Source: an uncultured Litorilinea sp. (GTDB lineage: Bacteria; Chloroflexota; Anaerolineae; Caldilineales; Caldilineaceae). From it: a stretch of DNA of 6,290 bases. Under the pieces are notes generated by a model, which did not search any database, was not told the origin of the DNA, and worked only from the letters and a program-made list of their open reading frames with translations. A program made the translations under genes and the position numbers. The stretch is from the NCBI GenBank assembly GCA_946885925.1, contig CAMPHP010000203.1:1-6290 (forward strand), read 5' to 3'. Within the stretch, counting starts at the first letter, position 1, and the number at the start of each line of letters is the position of its first letter. Positions 156-6,290 of this stretch are shown here, piece by piece.

Positions 156-272
156 ATGATGATTCCGGCAGTAATCCTTTCCAGCATTCTAGTACTTGGT
201 CTTATTACCGAGCTTCTGAGCGTAGTAGTACTTAGCGTCCAGAAGTCAATGCTGGTTGGTGAAGCTGCGTAG
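156..272 (+). CDS. Branched-chain amino acid leader peptide (attenuator ORF)
   Basis: This 38-codon ORF begins with two consecutive ATGs (156 and 159) and ends with TAG at 270-272. It encodes 8 Leu, 7 Val and 4 Ile, half of all residues, with the segments AVILSSILVLGLI early and SVVVLS at residues 22-27. That composition, together with a terminator 35 bases after the stop codon and an amino acid-matched ilvB gene downstream, is the hallmark of an ilv leader peptide. Translation would act as a sensor: the ribosome stalls when charged Val, Leu or Ile tRNA is scarce. No strong Shine-Dalgarno sequence is visible. The frame is open upstream to about position 90 but lacks an ATG there. Val is encoded mostly by GTA and Leu mostly by CTT, codons that are rare or absent in ilvN. 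An alternative reading is a tiny hydrophobic membrane peptide, but the RNA structures around it favour attenuation. Confidence 0.85.
   Translation: MMIPAVILSSILVLGLITELLSVVVLSVQKSMLVGEAA
181..255 (+). promoter_or_regulatory. Protector (1:2) RNA structure of the attenuator, three-way junction
   Basis: CCAGCATT (181-188) pairs perfectly with AATGCTGG (248-255). Two internal hairpins fit within this closing stem: CTTGGT/ACCGAG at 195-200 and 207-212 (one G-T wobble, loop CTTATT), and CTTCTG/CAGAAG at 213-218 and 240-245. Together they make a branched fold lying wholly within the leader ORF. It would hold bases 252-255, which the antiterminator needs, and so favour termination when the leader is not translated. 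The complementarity is seen directly; its role follows the classical attenuation model. Confidence 0.55.
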
Positions 273-322
273 AGATTAACGCCTGCACAGTCTCGAGGTC
301 ACTGTAGACCCTTCCCAACTGG
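252..322 (+). promoter_or_regulatory. Candidate antiterminator pairing (2:3)
   Basis: CTGGTTGGTGAAG (252-264, leader codons 33-37) can pair with CTTCCCAACTGG (311-322). This gives 12 pairs, two of them G-T wobbles, with T260 as a single bulge. The partner includes six bases of the 5' terminator arm, the whole terminator loop and two bases of the 3' arm, so this pairing and the terminator exclude each other. A ribosome stalled upstream, in the Val/Leu codons, would leave 252-264 free. A ribosome at the stop codon (270-272) would cover it and let the terminator form. The pairing is seen in the sequence; folding energies were not computed. Confidence 0.65.
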
Positions 323-335
323 GAAGGGTCTTTTT
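307..335 (+). terminator. ilvB: Intrinsic terminator of the ilvB attenuator
   Basis: GACCCTTCCC (307-316) and GGGAAGGGTC (321-330) form a perfect 10-bp stem with loop AACT, followed directly by TTTTT (331-335). It lies between the leader stop codon and the ilvB ribosome binding site (AAGGAGA, 349-355). It therefore ends transcription before the structural genes unless prevented, which is the position expected of an attenuator. A GGTC/GACC pair (297-300 with 307-310) offers only a weak competing fold. Confidence 0.9.
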
Positions 336-362: not shown

Positions 363-2153
363 ATGACCCAGTCGAGCCAAAACGGTCACGGGGCCTCATG
401 TTCAGAGCCTAGGCCGATGACGGGTGCCCAAATGGTGTGGGAGGCGCTGGTGCATGAAGGCGTAAATGTCGTCTTTGGTCATCCTGGTGGCGCGATCTTG
501 CCCACCTATGATGCACTGGCCCCTTATGAGGCGGATGGGCGGATTCATCATGTCCTCGTTCGTCATGAACAATGCGGCGCTCACATGGCGGATGGCTATG
601 CGCGGGCGACCAAGCGTGTGGGTGTCTGTATTGCCACCAGCGGGCCGGGTGCAACTAACCTGGTCACAGGTTTGGCAACCGCACTCATGGACAGCATCCC
701 CATTGTGGCAATCACCGGCCAAGTGCCAACCAATCTGTTGGGAACCGATGCCTTCCAAGAATCAGATATTGTCGGAGTGACGCAGCCGGTTTGCAAGCAC
801 ACCTATCTGGTGACCGATGTCAACGAACTGCCCATGATCCTCAAGGAAGCCTTCTATATTGCGCGTGAAGGGCGACCGGGGCCTGTGTTGGTGGACATCT
901 GTAAAGATGTGCAGAACGCCACAGGGATCTTCCGCTATGATATGGAGATTGACCTGCCCGGTTTTGAGCCGTGGCCCACGGTGAATATGGAAGATGTGCG
1001 TAAGGCCGCGGAGATGATCAACCGCAGCGAGCGCCCTCTGATCATCTCCGGACATGGGGTGCAGTTGGCTGGCGTGTCGCGTGAGTTGCTGGAACTGGTT
1101 GAAAAGGCCCAGATTCCAGTGGTGACCACGCTGTTAGGCACGGGCAATATCCCAGAGAGTCACCCGTTGAGCCTGGGCATGGCAGGGATGCACGGTGAAG
1201 CCTATGCCAACCGCGCGATCCAGGGCTGCGACCTGCTGATCGCGATGGGGATGCGTTTTGACGACCGCATCACAGGCCGTTTGGACCGTTTTGCAAAACA
1301 GGCCAAGATCATCCATTTTGAACTGGATCATGCCGAGGTGGGCAAGAATGTGGTGCCCGATGTGCCAGTGGTGGGTGACCTGGGTGAGACCCTGCCCGCA
1401 CTGCTGCCATTGGTTGAACAACGCCGCCATCAAATTTGGATGCAAGAACTGGACGAGTGGCGCGCTGACTCCTCCACTACAGATATCCTCAACTATGAGG
1501 TGGACGAACTCATTCCACCCTTTGTGATCCGCCAGCTCTGGCACAGCACCAAAGATTTATCCAATGGGCCTGTGATCATCGTGACTGATGTGGGCCAGCA
1601 CCAGATGTGGGAAAGCCAGTATTATATCCATGATCACGCGGGGCAGTTATTGACCAGCGGCGGTTCTGGGACGATGGGCTATGCGCTGCCCGGCGCTATC
1701 GGTGCCCAGATGGCCTATCCGGATCGCACAGTTTGGGCAGTGGTGGGTGATGGCGGCTTCCAGATGACTTTGCAGGAATTGGCCGTGTTGAAGCAGGAAC
1801 GGCTACCCGTGAAAATTGCCATTATCAACAATGGCTTCTTGGGCATGGTGCGCCAGTGGCAGCAGATGTTCTATGACAGGCGTTATGTGGGAACGCCTGT
1901 GGTGTCGCCCGACTTTGTGAAGCTGGCTGATGCCTATGATATTCCTGCCATTTCGGTGCGCAGACCAGATGAGGTGGCGGCTGCTTATGAAATGGCCCAC
2001 CGTACCCCTGGCCCTTTCCTAATTGATTTCCGCGTAAAAGAAGAAGTGAATGTTTACCCAATGGTGGCTCCTGGCGCAGCCGTGGATGAGTTGCTCCGCC
2101 GTCCCAAGCCCGCTGTGGTTCAAGGCTATAGCGGTGTAGAGCCGAGTTGGTAA
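363..2153 (+). CDS. ilvB: Acetolactate synthase, large (catalytic) subunit
   Basis: This 596-aa protein is the catalytic subunit of cytosolic acetohydroxyacid synthase. It joins two pyruvates into 2-acetolactate, or pyruvate and 2-oxobutyrate into 2-aceto-2-hydroxybutyrate, the first common step to Val, Leu and Ile. Three domains are recognisable. The N-terminal thiamine diphosphate domain (about 20-185) has [13 protein letters not shown] at 38-50, the catalytic Glu69 in VRHEQ and TSGPGATN at 92-99. The central FAD/DHS-like domain spans about 205-350. The C-terminal ThDP/Mg domain (about 385-560) has GDGGF at 462-466 and the Asn-Asn pair at 489-490. The segment GTDAFQES (127-134) is typical of the biosynthetic, FAD-containing enzyme rather than catabolic AlsS. 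The start at 363 is set by AAGGAGA seven bases upstream. A later ATG at 417 has no such site, so a short N-terminal extension of about 18 residues is probably real. ilvN follows after 67 bases. Expression should be controlled by the upstream attenuator. Confidence 0.97.
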
Positions 2154-2220: not shown

Positions 2221-2793
2221 ATGAAGCATACATTGGTCGCCTGGATGCGCGACAAGCCCGGTGTGTTAAACCGGGTGTCGGGCATGTTGCGTAGGCGCAA
2301 CTTCAATATTGATAGTTTGCAGGTGGGCCATAGCGAGACCCCAGGCATTAGCCGCATGACCTTTGTGGTAGATGGCAATGCCCATATGGTCGATCAGGTC
2401 ATCAAGCAATTACGCAAGGTCATTGACGTAACCCGTGTGGAAGACATCAGCGAGAAGCCCAGCGTGGTGCGTGAACTGGCGCTGATCCGGGTGCAGACTA
2501 ACCGGGAGAACCGTTCGGAGATCATGCAGTTGGTCAACATCTACCGCGCCGAGATTGTGGATGTGGCGCTGGACAGCCTGGTGGTGCAGATTGTGGGGGC
2601 AGAAGATCGCGTGGACGCGTTGATCGAGTTGTTGGCGAATTTCGGCATTGTGGAGATGGTGCGTACCGGGCGGGTTGCCATCGTGCGTGGGGTCACAGAA
2701 CGCCGCTTTAAGCGCGGGACGGCTGTGTGGAAGGCGCGCGTCAATGGCTATGAGTCTGACACAAGCGAACGCTTCCGCACGGGTGGCGTGTAG
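2221..2793 (+). CDS. ilvN: Acetolactate synthase, small (regulatory) subunit
   Basis: This 190-aa protein is the regulatory partner of IlvB; it activates the enzyme and usually confers feedback inhibition by valine. The ACT domain occupies about residues 3-75, with [13 protein letters not shown] at 11-23 and FNIDSLQVG at 28-36. The C-terminal small-subunit domain runs from about 83 to 157 (RELALIRV, then IYRAEIVDV). Gly14 and Asn29 align by eye with the valine-site residues of E. coli IlvH, where position 11 is Asn rather than Asp, so valine sensitivity is plausible but inferred. The basic tail (158-190) lies beyond the core domain. ATG 2221 is chosen because ACT domains begin within a few residues of the start. 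A TTG at 2170 in the same frame would add 17 unconserved residues. The Shine-Dalgarno sequence is weak (CAGAAAG at 2209-2215), which fits coupled expression behind ilvB. This subunit type is also named ilvH. Confidence 0.95.
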
Positions 2794-3105: not shown

Positions 3106-4110
3106 ATGGCAAAAATTTATTACGAGAATCAGGCGGATTTGGGGCTGCTCAAGGGCAAGAAGGTTGCTATTATCGGCTATGGCAGCCAGGGCCACGCCCA
3201 CGCCTTGAACTTGCAGGATAGCGGCGTTGATGTACGCGTCGGCTTGTATGAAGGCAGCAAGAGTTGGCCCAAGGCCGAGGCGGATGGCTTGCGCGTTGTG
3301 ACCAATGCCCAGGCTGCTGCTGAAGCTGACTTTATCATGATGGTGCTGCCCGATCCGATTCAATCCAAGGTCTATGAAGAAGACATTGCGCCCAATCTGA
3401 AGTCTGGTGACACGCTGATGTTTGCTCATGGCTTTAATATCCGCTTTGGGTTTATCCAGCCGCCCGCTGATGTTGATGTGACGATGGTTGCCCCCAAGGC
3501 TCCCGGTCATCGTGTGCGCGAGGTCTTCAAGGAAGGGTCGGGTGTTCCTGCATTGGTTGCCATTCACCAGGACGCCAGTGGCAATGCTCTGCAAAATTCT
3601 TTGGCCTATGCCAAGGGCATTGGCAGCACCCGCGCCGGTGTATTGGAGACAACCTTTACGGAAGAGACTGAAACTGACCTCTTTGGCGAGCAGGTGGTGC
3701 TTTGTGGTGGGGTTAGCGAACTGGTCAAGGCTGGTTTTGAGACCTTGGTCGATGCTGGCTACCAACCAGAGATTGCCTACTTTGAGTGTCTGCATGAGTT
3801 GAAGCTGATTGTGGACTTGATGTACCAGGGTGGCCTGAACTACATGCGCTTTAGCGTCTCCGACACTGCCGAGTGGGGCGATTACAAGAGCGGCCCGCGC
3901 ATTGTCACCGATGAGGTAAAGCAGACCATGAAGCAGATCCTGTCCGAGATCCAGTCGGGTGCGTTTGCCGAAGAGTGGATGGACGAGTATCACAACGGCA
4001 GCAAGGTGCTTCTCTCCACGCGCAAGGCCGAGCAGACCCAACAACTGGAACAGGTGGGCAAGGGGTTACGCAAGATGATGACCTTCTTGAACGCCAAGGA
4101 AATCGGTTAA
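3106..4110 (+). CDS. ilvC: Ketol-acid reductoisomerase, class I
   Basis: This 334-aa cytosolic enzyme catalyses the Mg-dependent alkyl shift and NAD(P)H reduction of 2-acetolactate to 2,3-dihydroxyisovalerate, and the parallel step for isoleucine. The Rossmann domain (about 1-180) has [11 protein letters not shown] at 23-33 and MFAHGFNI at 105-112, with His108. APKAPGH (129-135) carries Lys131. The helical domain has the metal and catalytic ligands TDLFGEQ (Asp191, Glu195), FECLHELK (Glu227, Glu231) and SVSDTAE (Ser252). Length is normal for class I. ATG 3106 is chosen because KARI proteins start with MAKIYY-like sequences; AAGGA at 3090-3094 is the likely ribosome site, 11 bases away. The in-frame GTG at 3004 would add 34 unlikely residues. 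The cofactor loop reads LYEGSKSW (47-54), with Tyr and Glu where NADPH-using relatives often have Arg and a neutral residue. It probably has its own promoter at 2940-2986. Confidence 0.96.
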
Positions 4111-4389: not shown

Positions 4390-6180
4390 ATGACTTCCCA
4401 GGACCAAAGCAATGGCAGTGATCATGTAGAAAACGGCACAGAAGATGTATCCGCCGTAGATCTGTCTCATGTCGATGTCAACCAATTTGTCATCTCCGAC
4501 ATCAACGAATATGCCCGCACGATTGCCCACGGCAAGCGCGTCGTCGTTTTTGACACAACCCTACGCGATGGCGAACAGAGCCCCGGCGCTACGCTGAACA
4601 CCCAAGAAAAATTGGATATTGCCCACCAACTGGCTCGTTTGGGTGTAGACGTGATGGAGGCAGGTTTTCCTGCTGCCAGCCCTGGTGACTTGGATGCTGT
4701 GCGTCAGATTGCCAACACGGTTGGGCGTCAGCCGCGCGTGGGCCACAATGGCGAGATTCTGCCGCCTCCTTCAATTGCCGGGCTGGCGCGTGCCAACAAG
4801 CATGATATTGACCGCGCATGGGAAGCAGTGCAGGGAGCAGTCCGCCCGCGCATCCACACCTTCTTGGCAACCAGCGACATCCATATGGAACACAAACTGC
4901 GCATGAGCCGCAATGATGTGTTGGAGACGGTGGGTGACATGGTGCAGTATGCCCGCAGCTTTTGCCAAGATGTGGAGTTTAGCCCGGAGGATGCTGGACG
5001 CAGCGACCCGGATTTTTTGGTACAAGTCGTCGGTGTTGCGATTAAGGCCGGAGCCACCACGATTAATATTCCCGACACCGTGGGCTATACGACGCCAGAG
5101 GAGTTTGGCTGGCTGATTGCCTATCTGCGTGAGAATGTCCCAGGGGCCAAGGATGTCATTTTTAGCGTCCATTGTCACAACGACCTGGGGTTGGCAACTG
5201 CCAACACCCTGGCTGGCTTGCGCAGCGGTGCGCGGCAGATGGAAGTTACCATCAACGGCATTGGCGAGCGCGCCGGTAATACCAGCCTGGAAGAAGCGGT
5301 GATGGCGATCTATGTGCGCCAACAGCAATTTGCGCTGGAGACAAGCGTGGAGACGCGCGAGATCCACCGCGCCAGTGATATGGTGAGCCGTTACACCGGG
5401 ATGGTCATCCAACCCAACAAGGCCATTGTCGGTGCAAATGCCTTTGCCCATGAGGCTGGCATTCACCAGGATGGCATGCTGAAGAATAAGCGCACCTATG
5501 AGATCATGGATGCCTCCACAATTGGCTTGAACCAAAGCTCACTGGTCTTGGGCAAGCATAGTGGTCGCCATGCCCTGCGCCGCAAGTTGGAGGAGATGGG
5601 CTACCACCTGGATCGTGAGGAACTGAACGACATTTTCCAACGTTTCAAGGATCTGGCGGACAAGAAGAAGACCGTTACCGATGCCGACTTGGAAGCACTG
5701 GTTGGGGATGAGATCTACCAGCCCGAGGAGACATGGGAATTGGTCAATGTCCAGGTGCAATGTGGCACCACGACGATCCCGACTGCGGTGGTGACTTTGC
5801 GCAACAATCAGACGGGCGAGACCATTATTGACGCTGGCTTTGGCACCGGGCCAGTAGACGCCATTTACCAGGGTATCAACCGCATTGTCGGCGTGAGCAA
5901 TACCCTGGTGGAGTTCTTGGTGCAGGCGATTACCGAAGGCATGGATGCCAATGGCGACGTGACCATTCGCATCGAAGTTCCTGCACAGAGCGTCGGCTAC
6001 AAGGAAACCGCTCAGGGCCGCCAGCGCCGCCGCCTCTTTAGCGGGCGTGGCGTAGATACCGACATTGTCGTCGCCAGTGCGAAGGCGTATATGCAGGCGC
6101 TCAACAAGGCTTTGGAGAGCAAGGAAGAGAATTCTTCAGCAGTCAATATCGCTGAAGGCGCGACACAAGCGGCAGATTGA
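4390..6180 (+). CDS. leuA: 2-Isopropylmalate synthase
   Basis: This 596-aa protein condenses acetyl-CoA with 2-oxoisovalerate to 2-isopropylmalate, the committed step of leucine synthesis. The TIM-barrel (HMGL-like) domain covers about 48-325. It has [14 protein letters not shown] at 54-67 (Arg59 and metal ligand Asp55), HCHNDLG at 261-267 (metal ligands His261 and His263) and [14 protein letters not shown] at 289-302 (Asn297). A linker subdomain with [13 protein letters not shown] (350-362) and LGKHSGRHA (387-395) follows. The C-terminal leucine-binding LeuA domain is about 445-575, so leucine feedback inhibition is expected. The start at 4390 follows AAAGG (4377-4381) by eight bases; an in-frame TTG at 4348 is less likely. 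Common LeuA proteins reach the DTTLRDGEQ motif within the first 10-20 residues; here about 50 residues, acidic and polar at first, precede it. The tail (577-596) is also extra. Homocitrate and citramalate synthases are relatives, but the ilv context and C-terminal domain favour LeuA. Confidence 0.95.
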
Positions 6181-6247: not shown

Positions 6248-6280
6248 AGAAGCCAGGTTGCCAGCGCAATCCTGGCTTTT
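6248..6280 (+). terminator. leuA: Intrinsic terminator after leuA
   Basis: AAGCCAGG (6250-6257) pairs with CCTGGCTT (6271-6278). Beyond a single bulged T (6270), TTGC (6258-6261) pairs with GCAA (6266-6269) around the loop CAGC. A248-T280 and G249-T279 type pairs (6248, 6249 with 6280, 6279) can extend the base. The 3' side runs into TTTT at 6277-6280, then CCCCC. Lying 67 bases after the leuA stop, it most simply ends the leuA transcript, so the cluster probably stops here. It could instead be an attenuator for an unseen downstream gene. Confidence 0.8.
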
Positions 6281-6290
6281 CCCCCTAAAG

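Follow-up and report, generated by a model that had tools for sequence, protein, structure and literature searches.

Predicted ribosome-mediated transcription attenuator upstream of ilvBNC-leuA in a Caldilineaceae-like member of the Chloroflexota

The ilvB-ilvN-ilvC-leuA locus and its upstream region

The window, as we call the whole stretch of 6,290 nucleotides analysed, carries four plus-strand genes of branched-chain amino-acid synthesis in the order ilvB-ilvN-ilvC-leuA, which are presumably cotranscribed, preceded by a short open reading frame, several RNA hairpins and an intrinsic terminator (Table 1). The IlvB protein shares 92% identity with that of its closest relative, a Caldilineaceae MAG (L001); judged by sequence, the host is a Caldilineaceae-like bacterium of the Chloroflexota, the phylum that the preliminary description of this DNA had guessed and to which the closest relatives indeed belong. 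Related ilvB loci were gathered for comparison (52), and the family analysis excluded one whose gene is cut by a contig end (L038) and 10 loci of other phyla. The Caldilineaceae-type set used below contains 41 loci, counting the window and leaving aside an Anaerolineales locus (L042).

Table 1 Features of the window (1-based positions, plus strand).
Feature	Position	Strand	Description
Leader ORF	156..272	+	38 codons, 19 of them Ile/Leu/Val; ATG at 156 or 159; stop TAG 270-272
P1 hairpin	212..246	+	Within the leader ORF; holds several control codons
Antiterminator arm A	254..264	+	GGUUGGUGAAG, with a bulge at U260; formed by the final leader codons
P2 hairpin	265..290	+	Follows arm A and precedes P3; seen at the level of the family
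P3 hairpin	297..310	+	GGUC-ACUGUA-GACC; predicted, in the antiterminator state, to engage the basal part of the terminator's 5' arm
Intrinsic terminator	306..335	+	306-331: 11 pairs, loop AACU (4 nt); U-run 331-335
Antiterminator arm A'	311..320	+	Common to the terminator's 5' arm and loop
ilvB	363..2153	+	Acetolactate synthase large subunit (TIGR00118); first gene past the switch
ilvN	2221..2793	+	Acetolactate synthase small subunit (TIGR00119)
ilvC	3106..4110	+	Ketol-acid reductoisomerase (TIGR00465)
leuA	4390..6180	+	2-isopropylmalate synthase (TIGR00973)

No promoter was found upstream of the leader within the window. L001 carries TTGACA-17-TATACT just upstream of the point that matches the window start, which suggests that the promoter of the window lies just outside it. 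A TATAAT element, preceded at a distance of 16 nt by a TTGC-type hexamer, is present 49-59 nt ahead of the leader start in 20 of the 41 loci. Four loci (L029, L030, L032 and L036, the L029 group) show TTGACT-18-TACAAT only 11-12 nt ahead of the leader start, a distance that places the predicted transcription start near the ATG; these leaders may be translated from leaderless mRNAs. Judged by eye, there is no clear Shine-Dalgarno sequence ahead of the leader ATG. Two further elements were also spotted by eye: a direct repeat (TGTGTAATCT, 53-62 and 65-74) in the probable 5' untranslated stretch, and, downstream of leuA (6250-6282), a terminator-like inverted repeat (AGCCAGG...CCTGGCT) followed by Ts.

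Mutually exclusive terminator and antiterminator folds

The terminator hairpin, which has a stability of -20.7 kcal/mol when folded alone, is the same structure that was initially described as a 10-bp stem followed by five Ts, the outer A-U pair having been counted as tail. Arm A pairs with arm A' through 254-259 and 261-264 against 311-320, forming 10 pairs (one of them G-U); the antiterminator of 12 pairs proposed previously is thus present, but its positions 252-253 fall outside the conserved core of 10. The segment 252-322 reaches -22.7 kcal/mol when folded alone, and the two folds in the window are mutually exclusive and similar in stability. Compared with 200 dinucleotide shuffles, the arm duplex gave a z-score of -3.1 (p 0.005, the floor of this test), and the whole region (156-340) a z-score of -3.5, with 1 of the 200 shuffles equally stable.

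Three additional hairpins accompany these arms. The stability of P1 exceeded that of synonymous recodings of the leader in the window (p 0.02) and in 17 of 30 leaders at p<=0.05 (mean z -2.1), and P1 is probably an RNA polymerase pause hairpin. P2 was supported at p<=0.05 in 13 of 26 loci but not in the window itself (p 0.45). P3 (GGUC-N6-GACC) was found in 37 of the 41 loci, and every P3 cell is paired in the family alignment (A1); P3 occupies the basal part of the terminator's 5' arm, and the predicted antiterminator state of many loci is accordingly a junction that A:A' closes and that encloses P2 and P3. The P3 loop (301-306 in the window) is strongly conserved among relatives, mostly as A-N-Y-G-N-A, and has no pairing partner or known ligand.

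Conservation and covariation of the arms

Arm A in the family reads GGUUGG-N-GAAG with small changes (GGUGAGGG in the L029 group), and GGUUGG is invariant across the 25 sequences of alignment A1, from which the L029 group is excluded. The leader ORF is present in all 41 Caldilineaceae-type loci and ends near arm A. The position of its stop is variable: the first base of the stop codon lies 24 to 59 nt ahead of the terminator start, being located 5 nt before arm A in 11 loci and 9 to 31 nt past the first base of arm A in the remaining 30. Arm A is therefore conserved at the RNA level, since it is kept even in the 11 loci where it is non-coding.

Within the family, 98.3% of the cells of alignment A1 are paired, compared with 35-63% in slid controls, and none of the 14 pairs shows a two-sided change; the arms are here too conserved to covary. 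Beyond the family the arms do covary, across the class and the phylum, in two of three alignments. In an alignment of 64 class and family sequences made with the structure model, 9 of the 14 pairs showed two-sided change, with 35 two-sided cells compared to 6.7 (sd 6.2) after shuffling (0/500 shuffles as high). As this alignment is fitted to the structure, a model lacking base pairs was built for a fairer test and applied to 59 source sequences: 22 of these were not matched by it, 39 matches were aligned, and removing two in which the terminator had matched its own antisense strand left 37 rows for the count. The sequence-only alignment contained 13 two-sided cells compared to 4.0 (sd 3.1; 2/1000 shuffles) and 314 of 351 paired cells compared to 306.6 (sd 2.0; 0/1000 shuffles); slid controls were less paired (at most 218/325) and had up to 9 two-sided cells. 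The third alignment, an ilvB-anchored MAFFT set of 23 sequences (19 Caldilineaceae-type including the window, and four others; five more were dropped where the terminator finder failed), showed no significant excess of two-sided cells (3 compared to 1.6, a value reached in 109/500 shuffles); 206 of its 229 cells were paired (18/500 shuffles). The covarying stems that the preliminary description had proposed as a check were accordingly found outside the family, the sequence-only alignment included, but not inside it.

Taken one at a time, the arm duplexes of 31 out of 58 model hits were more stable than their shuffles (p<=0.05), and those of the other 27 were no better (for example L005, p 0.48; L006, p 0.57; L208, p 0.88). 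These 58 hits, like the 64 aligned sequences, were picked by models that contain the arms (R1 and R2, described below), so that both tests lean towards the structure. Among 10 loci collected independently of the models, through ilvB homology and a leader-terminator filter, three reached p<=0.05 and seven did not. Matched arm pairs with different sequences occur among the model hits (GGUUGGGAGG/CCUCCCAACC, GGUUGGAAGG/CCUUCCAACC and CGUUUGGAAGG/CCUUCCAAACG) and in L058, a locus reached via ilvB homology, in which CGUUUGGGAGG is matched with CCUCCCAAACG. A strict filter for a leader plus a terminator passed 36 of 42 Chloroflexota ilvB upstream regions (the window and L042 included), none of 840 shuffles and none of the 10 ilvB upstream regions from other phyla. 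Both the leader rich in Ile, Val and Leu and the complementarity of the arms, whose loss in relatives would have spoken against the original proposal, are conserved in the family and beyond.

Composition and codon usage of the leader peptide

The count of 19 branched-chain residues in 38 codons agrees with the 50% Ile/Val/Leu reported at first for this leader, and the control codons V23-V25 (Val) and L26 (Leu) sit shortly upstream of the switch arm. Branched-chain residues make up about one third to one half of the leader residues in the 41 loci, four of which (L006, L007, L028 and L035) were assigned a TTG or GTG start. The Ile/Leu/Val fraction of the leaders is 0.46 in frame, compared to 0.20 and 0.10 in the other two frames, and 14 of 23 non-synonymous changes at Ile/Leu/Val codons lead to another of these three residues (0.34 expected, p 0.009). 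The excess of third-position changes is weak (47 of 119 substitutions, p 0.09).

Synonymous codon choice in the leaders differs strongly from that of ilvB in the same loci: CUU accounts for 50% of Leu codons and GUA for 50% of Val codons, compared in both cases with 7% in ilvB. In 20 leader clusters, the enrichment of CUU over CUC was significant both upstream of P1 (p 3e-6) and within or after P1 (p 9e-11), as was that of GUA over GUC plus GUU (p 1e-7 and p 3e-15, respectively); the preference for CUU and GUA is more than an avoidance of G. CUU is also favoured over CUC in more distant leaders (p 2e-8), where AUU makes up 81 of 109 Ile codons, compared to 27% in their genes, and the GUA preference is non-significant (p 0.2). 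This distant set comprises 31 leaders kept as distinct, of which at least one (MRDGRLRHRPVLQ...) looks wrong and which still includes ilvD-type leaders that resemble one another. Under the selective charging theory, one particular synonym is expected to be used for control codons, and the E. coli leu leader is described in the same source as having biased control codons (CUA; PMC1183508); the present leaders resemble it in this respect, with CUU and GUA in place of CUA.

These data bear on two alternatives. One is that the switch is real and responds to general translation or to use of the start codon, not to the charging of branched-chain tRNAs at control codons. The loosely conserved peptide sequence and the weak third-position excess would fit such a signal, as might the behaviour of Streptomyces coelicolor ilvB leader mutants, in which replacement of the candidate control codons reportedly had no effect (PMC1262725). 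It would leave unexplained that Ile/Leu/Val density is confined to the reading frame, that 14 of the 23 changes noted above stay within these residues, that the CUU and GUA bias is strong on both sides of the P1 boundary, and that the element is associated with ilvB and ilvD; we consider it unlikely. The other alternative is that the ORF specifies a small hydrophobic protein with a function of its own, and that its gene simply ends in an ordinary partial terminator. The peptide is indeed hydrophobic, and an ORF and a terminator taken alone require no switch, but the conservation of arm A outside the ORF, the covariation of the arms and the wide variation of the peptide sequences across the 31 distinct leaders all argue against this option, which we regard as highly improbable.

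Ribosome position and the proposed attenuation mechanism

The element is very probably a ribosome-mediated transcription attenuator for branched-chain amino-acid synthesis that senses the supply of aminoacyl-tRNAs, a reading built on the elements themselves, their conservation, the covariation of the arms at class and phylum level, the association with the operon, the codon bias and a geometric masking model. According to this attenuation model, RNA polymerase would transcribe the leader from the upstream promoter and may pause at P1, while a ribosome trails on the leader ORF. A shortage of Val-, Leu- or Ile-tRNA would slow the ribosome at the control codons and leave arm A (254-264) free to pair with A' (311-320), assisted by P3, which would occupy the base of the terminator's 5' arm; formation of A:A' would block the terminator, allowing ilvBNC-leuA to be transcribed. 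With charged tRNAs in ample supply, the ribosome would reach the end of the leader, on or just past arm A, and the terminator (306-331) would form.

The geometric model, in which the RNA under and behind the ribosome is masked, was applied to 11 leaders. The antiterminator was available with the ribosome on the last control codons in all 11 and disappeared between 1 and 12 codons ahead of the stop, also in all 11; this loss is largely built into the masking rule and thus reflects a consistent geometry, not regulation. Some control codons were non-permissive owing to competing pairings (codons 11-19 of L005 and parts of L019 and L020). With the ribosome at the start codon, the probability of the antiterminator ranged from 0.0 to 0.97 among the 11 leaders, and we therefore dropped the general logic of a switch that is on by default without translation, which had been derived from P1 not overlapping arm A. 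The original statement that the ribosome covers the arm only at the stop codon is too narrow, because the stops of the 41 loci range in position from 5 nt ahead of arm A to 31 nt past its first base; given this variation, the conserved feature is that a ribosome completing the leader would be placed on the arm or slightly beyond it.

Comparison with known leaders

In the textbook attenuator, a 1:2 hairpin shares strand 2 with the antiterminator, an arrangement that is not required of every attenuator. The window differs from it, with P1 ending at 246 and arm A starting at 254; positions 248-255 can pair with 181-188, overlapping arm A by two bases. The resemblance to the E. coli ilvBN, ilvGMEDA and leu attenuators includes a leader rich in branched-chain residues, a terminator, an exclusive antiterminator and the same kind of operon. 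Further differences from the E. coli systems are the location of arm A, within the last codons or just past the stop, and the extra P3 hairpin that takes up the terminator base in the Caldilineaceae. The mechanism proposed here is shared with the ilv and leu attenuators of enterobacteria, and we accordingly read the element as a known mechanism in a leader-peptide attenuator family of the Chloroflexota, with P3 as a Caldilineaceae elaboration. The overall reading of the preliminary description, an ilv attenuator with a leader, a terminator and an exclusive antiterminator, is supported, and its claims about these three sequence elements hold.

Three published groups of ilvB leaders are comparable, each by its published description. 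The Corynebacterium ilvB-II motif likewise combines an upstream ORF rich in branched-chain codons with a terminator and an antiterminator before ilvB; its ORF is usually of 15-17 residues and spans most of its P1 (PMC10272879), whereas the present leaders mostly have about 30-40 codons and arm A at or after their end. Actinobacterial ilvB leader candidates also consist of short ORFs with Ile/Val/Leu runs and terminators before ilvB, but in that group the ORF extends into the terminator hairpin, and the authors did not settle on a mode of regulation (PMC1262725), while the stop codon begins here 24 to 59 nt ahead of the terminator. The ilvB-OMG motif (41 representatives from various phyla) shares the branched-chain-rich ORF before ilvB and is set apart by its peptides, reported to be rich in threonine codons too (PMC10272879). 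No Rfam match named ilvB-OMG or ilvB-II was obtained in positions 1-400 of the window or in 20 related loci, a result from Rfam models and not from the published alignments.

The Rfam search proposed earlier found no Rfam 15 model reaching its threshold in the window. The nearest branched-chain leader model, Leu_leader (RF00512), scored 20 bits (E 0.084), below its gathering cut-off of 50. This search also bears on whether a T-box, a ppGpp riboswitch or a riboswitch for another ligand precedes ilvB, an option suggested by the ppGpp riboswitch that controls ilvB in some bacteria (PMC10272879). The window has no match at gathering score; at E<=5, positions 1-400 give five sub-threshold matches, none of them to a T-box, ppGpp or other riboswitch model, and at E<=0.1 the 20 related loci give a single sub-threshold match, to Phe_leader. 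T-box and riboswitch readings were rejected given that neither the window nor the 20 loci show such a match, and we see scarcely any likelihood in them.

The element is not described in the open literature on attenuation and leader peptides in Chloroflexi, Chloroflexota or Chloroflexus, within the accessible text of the sources covered (PMC4833913 and PMC9413887 included). The initial suggestion that this instance may be undescribed holds for that literature only; Lopatovskaya et al. 2010, outside this scope, may cover Chloroflexota. The attenuator reading would add, to the groups that use a classic regulatory mechanism, a phylum for which the open literature searched does not report it, and the analysis supplies a covariance model together with many natural variants (stops on either side of the arm, compensated arms and differing control codons). 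These variants make two questions testable: where the ribosome has to be with respect to the antiterminator strand, and whether selective charging of tRNA isoacceptors governs the choice of control codons. A broader reading, about which we are more doubtful than confident, is that the Chloroflexota have their own ancient and modular attenuator family, in which a cassette of arm A, linker and terminator stands before ilvB or ilvD throughout much of the phylum and is combined with different leader peptides ahead of other amino-acid genes (Leu-rich before leuA in L173, Thr/Ser before serA in L239), with a mobile stop and with control codons that are rare in the regulated genes.

Distribution in the Chloroflexota and gene context

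The covariance model R1, built from 25 of 26 non-redundant loci (L029 was kept out), matched 44 of 46 family genomes, 40 of them strongly (E<1e-15) and four weakly. All 40 strong loci lead into ilvB, as do the two weak ones examined (L231 and L236). At class level, R1 had a match at E<=0.1 in 42 of 150 genomes; 29 of the 38 loci examined outside the family lead into ilvB or ilvD. The rebuilt model R2 matched 55 of 400 Chloroflexota genomes at E<=0.001, a count including some genomes that had supplied model sequences (e.g. G001, G185, G089, G262 and G349). At the same threshold, R2 matched one of 201 control genomes in the phylum of L044 (titled Armatimonadetes), at a site with no Ile/Val/Leu leader and whose next ORF matched no NCBIfam family, and none of 188 genomes in the phylum of L039 (Myxococcota), an empty result that alone proves little. 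Among four genomes of other phyla, R2 gave a weak match in one (E 0.04), again with no Ile/Val/Leu leader seen.

Of 29 R2 matches in genomes whose ilvB was located by protein search, 28 lie on the same strand 37 to 2117 nt upstream of that gene; two further matches belong to genomes with no located ilvB. When the downstream genes were examined, 27 of 28 R2 loci led into ilvB or ilvD, and family models confirmed four ilvD representatives. A strict scan directly upstream of ilvB in other Chloroflexota, covering 29 loci and 80 of the further matches listed, found a leader and a terminator in 10 of 109 regions, compared to 0 of 2180 shuffles; a scan at this location misses leaders before ilvD.

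Several branched-chain leaders with terminators have no ilv gene in the stretch examined (L207, L209, L216, L200, L210, L225 and L259). L207 is followed by a 139-aa protein with no Pfam match and L216 by a rubrerythrin-like gene. Roughly 1 kb further downstream lie an NAD(P)HX repair gene in L225 and an RseP-like protease in L259, and in the rest nothing was recognised.

Two weak matches precede other biosynthetic genes. A second, weaker match in the Caldilineaceae genome of L009 (L173, minus strand, 1501-1633) comprises a Leu-rich leader (MIVFSTALFNLLSLSLLLVRRDTRLGGIRL) and a terminator upstream of isopropylmalate synthase. A weak match in L239 (361-510, E 0.095) lies upstream of serA (PGDH domains) and contains a short Thr/Ser-rich ORF (MVCGWAFSVNGTTTTSSTTCRGR) with an arm and a terminator, possibly a serine-synthesis attenuator.
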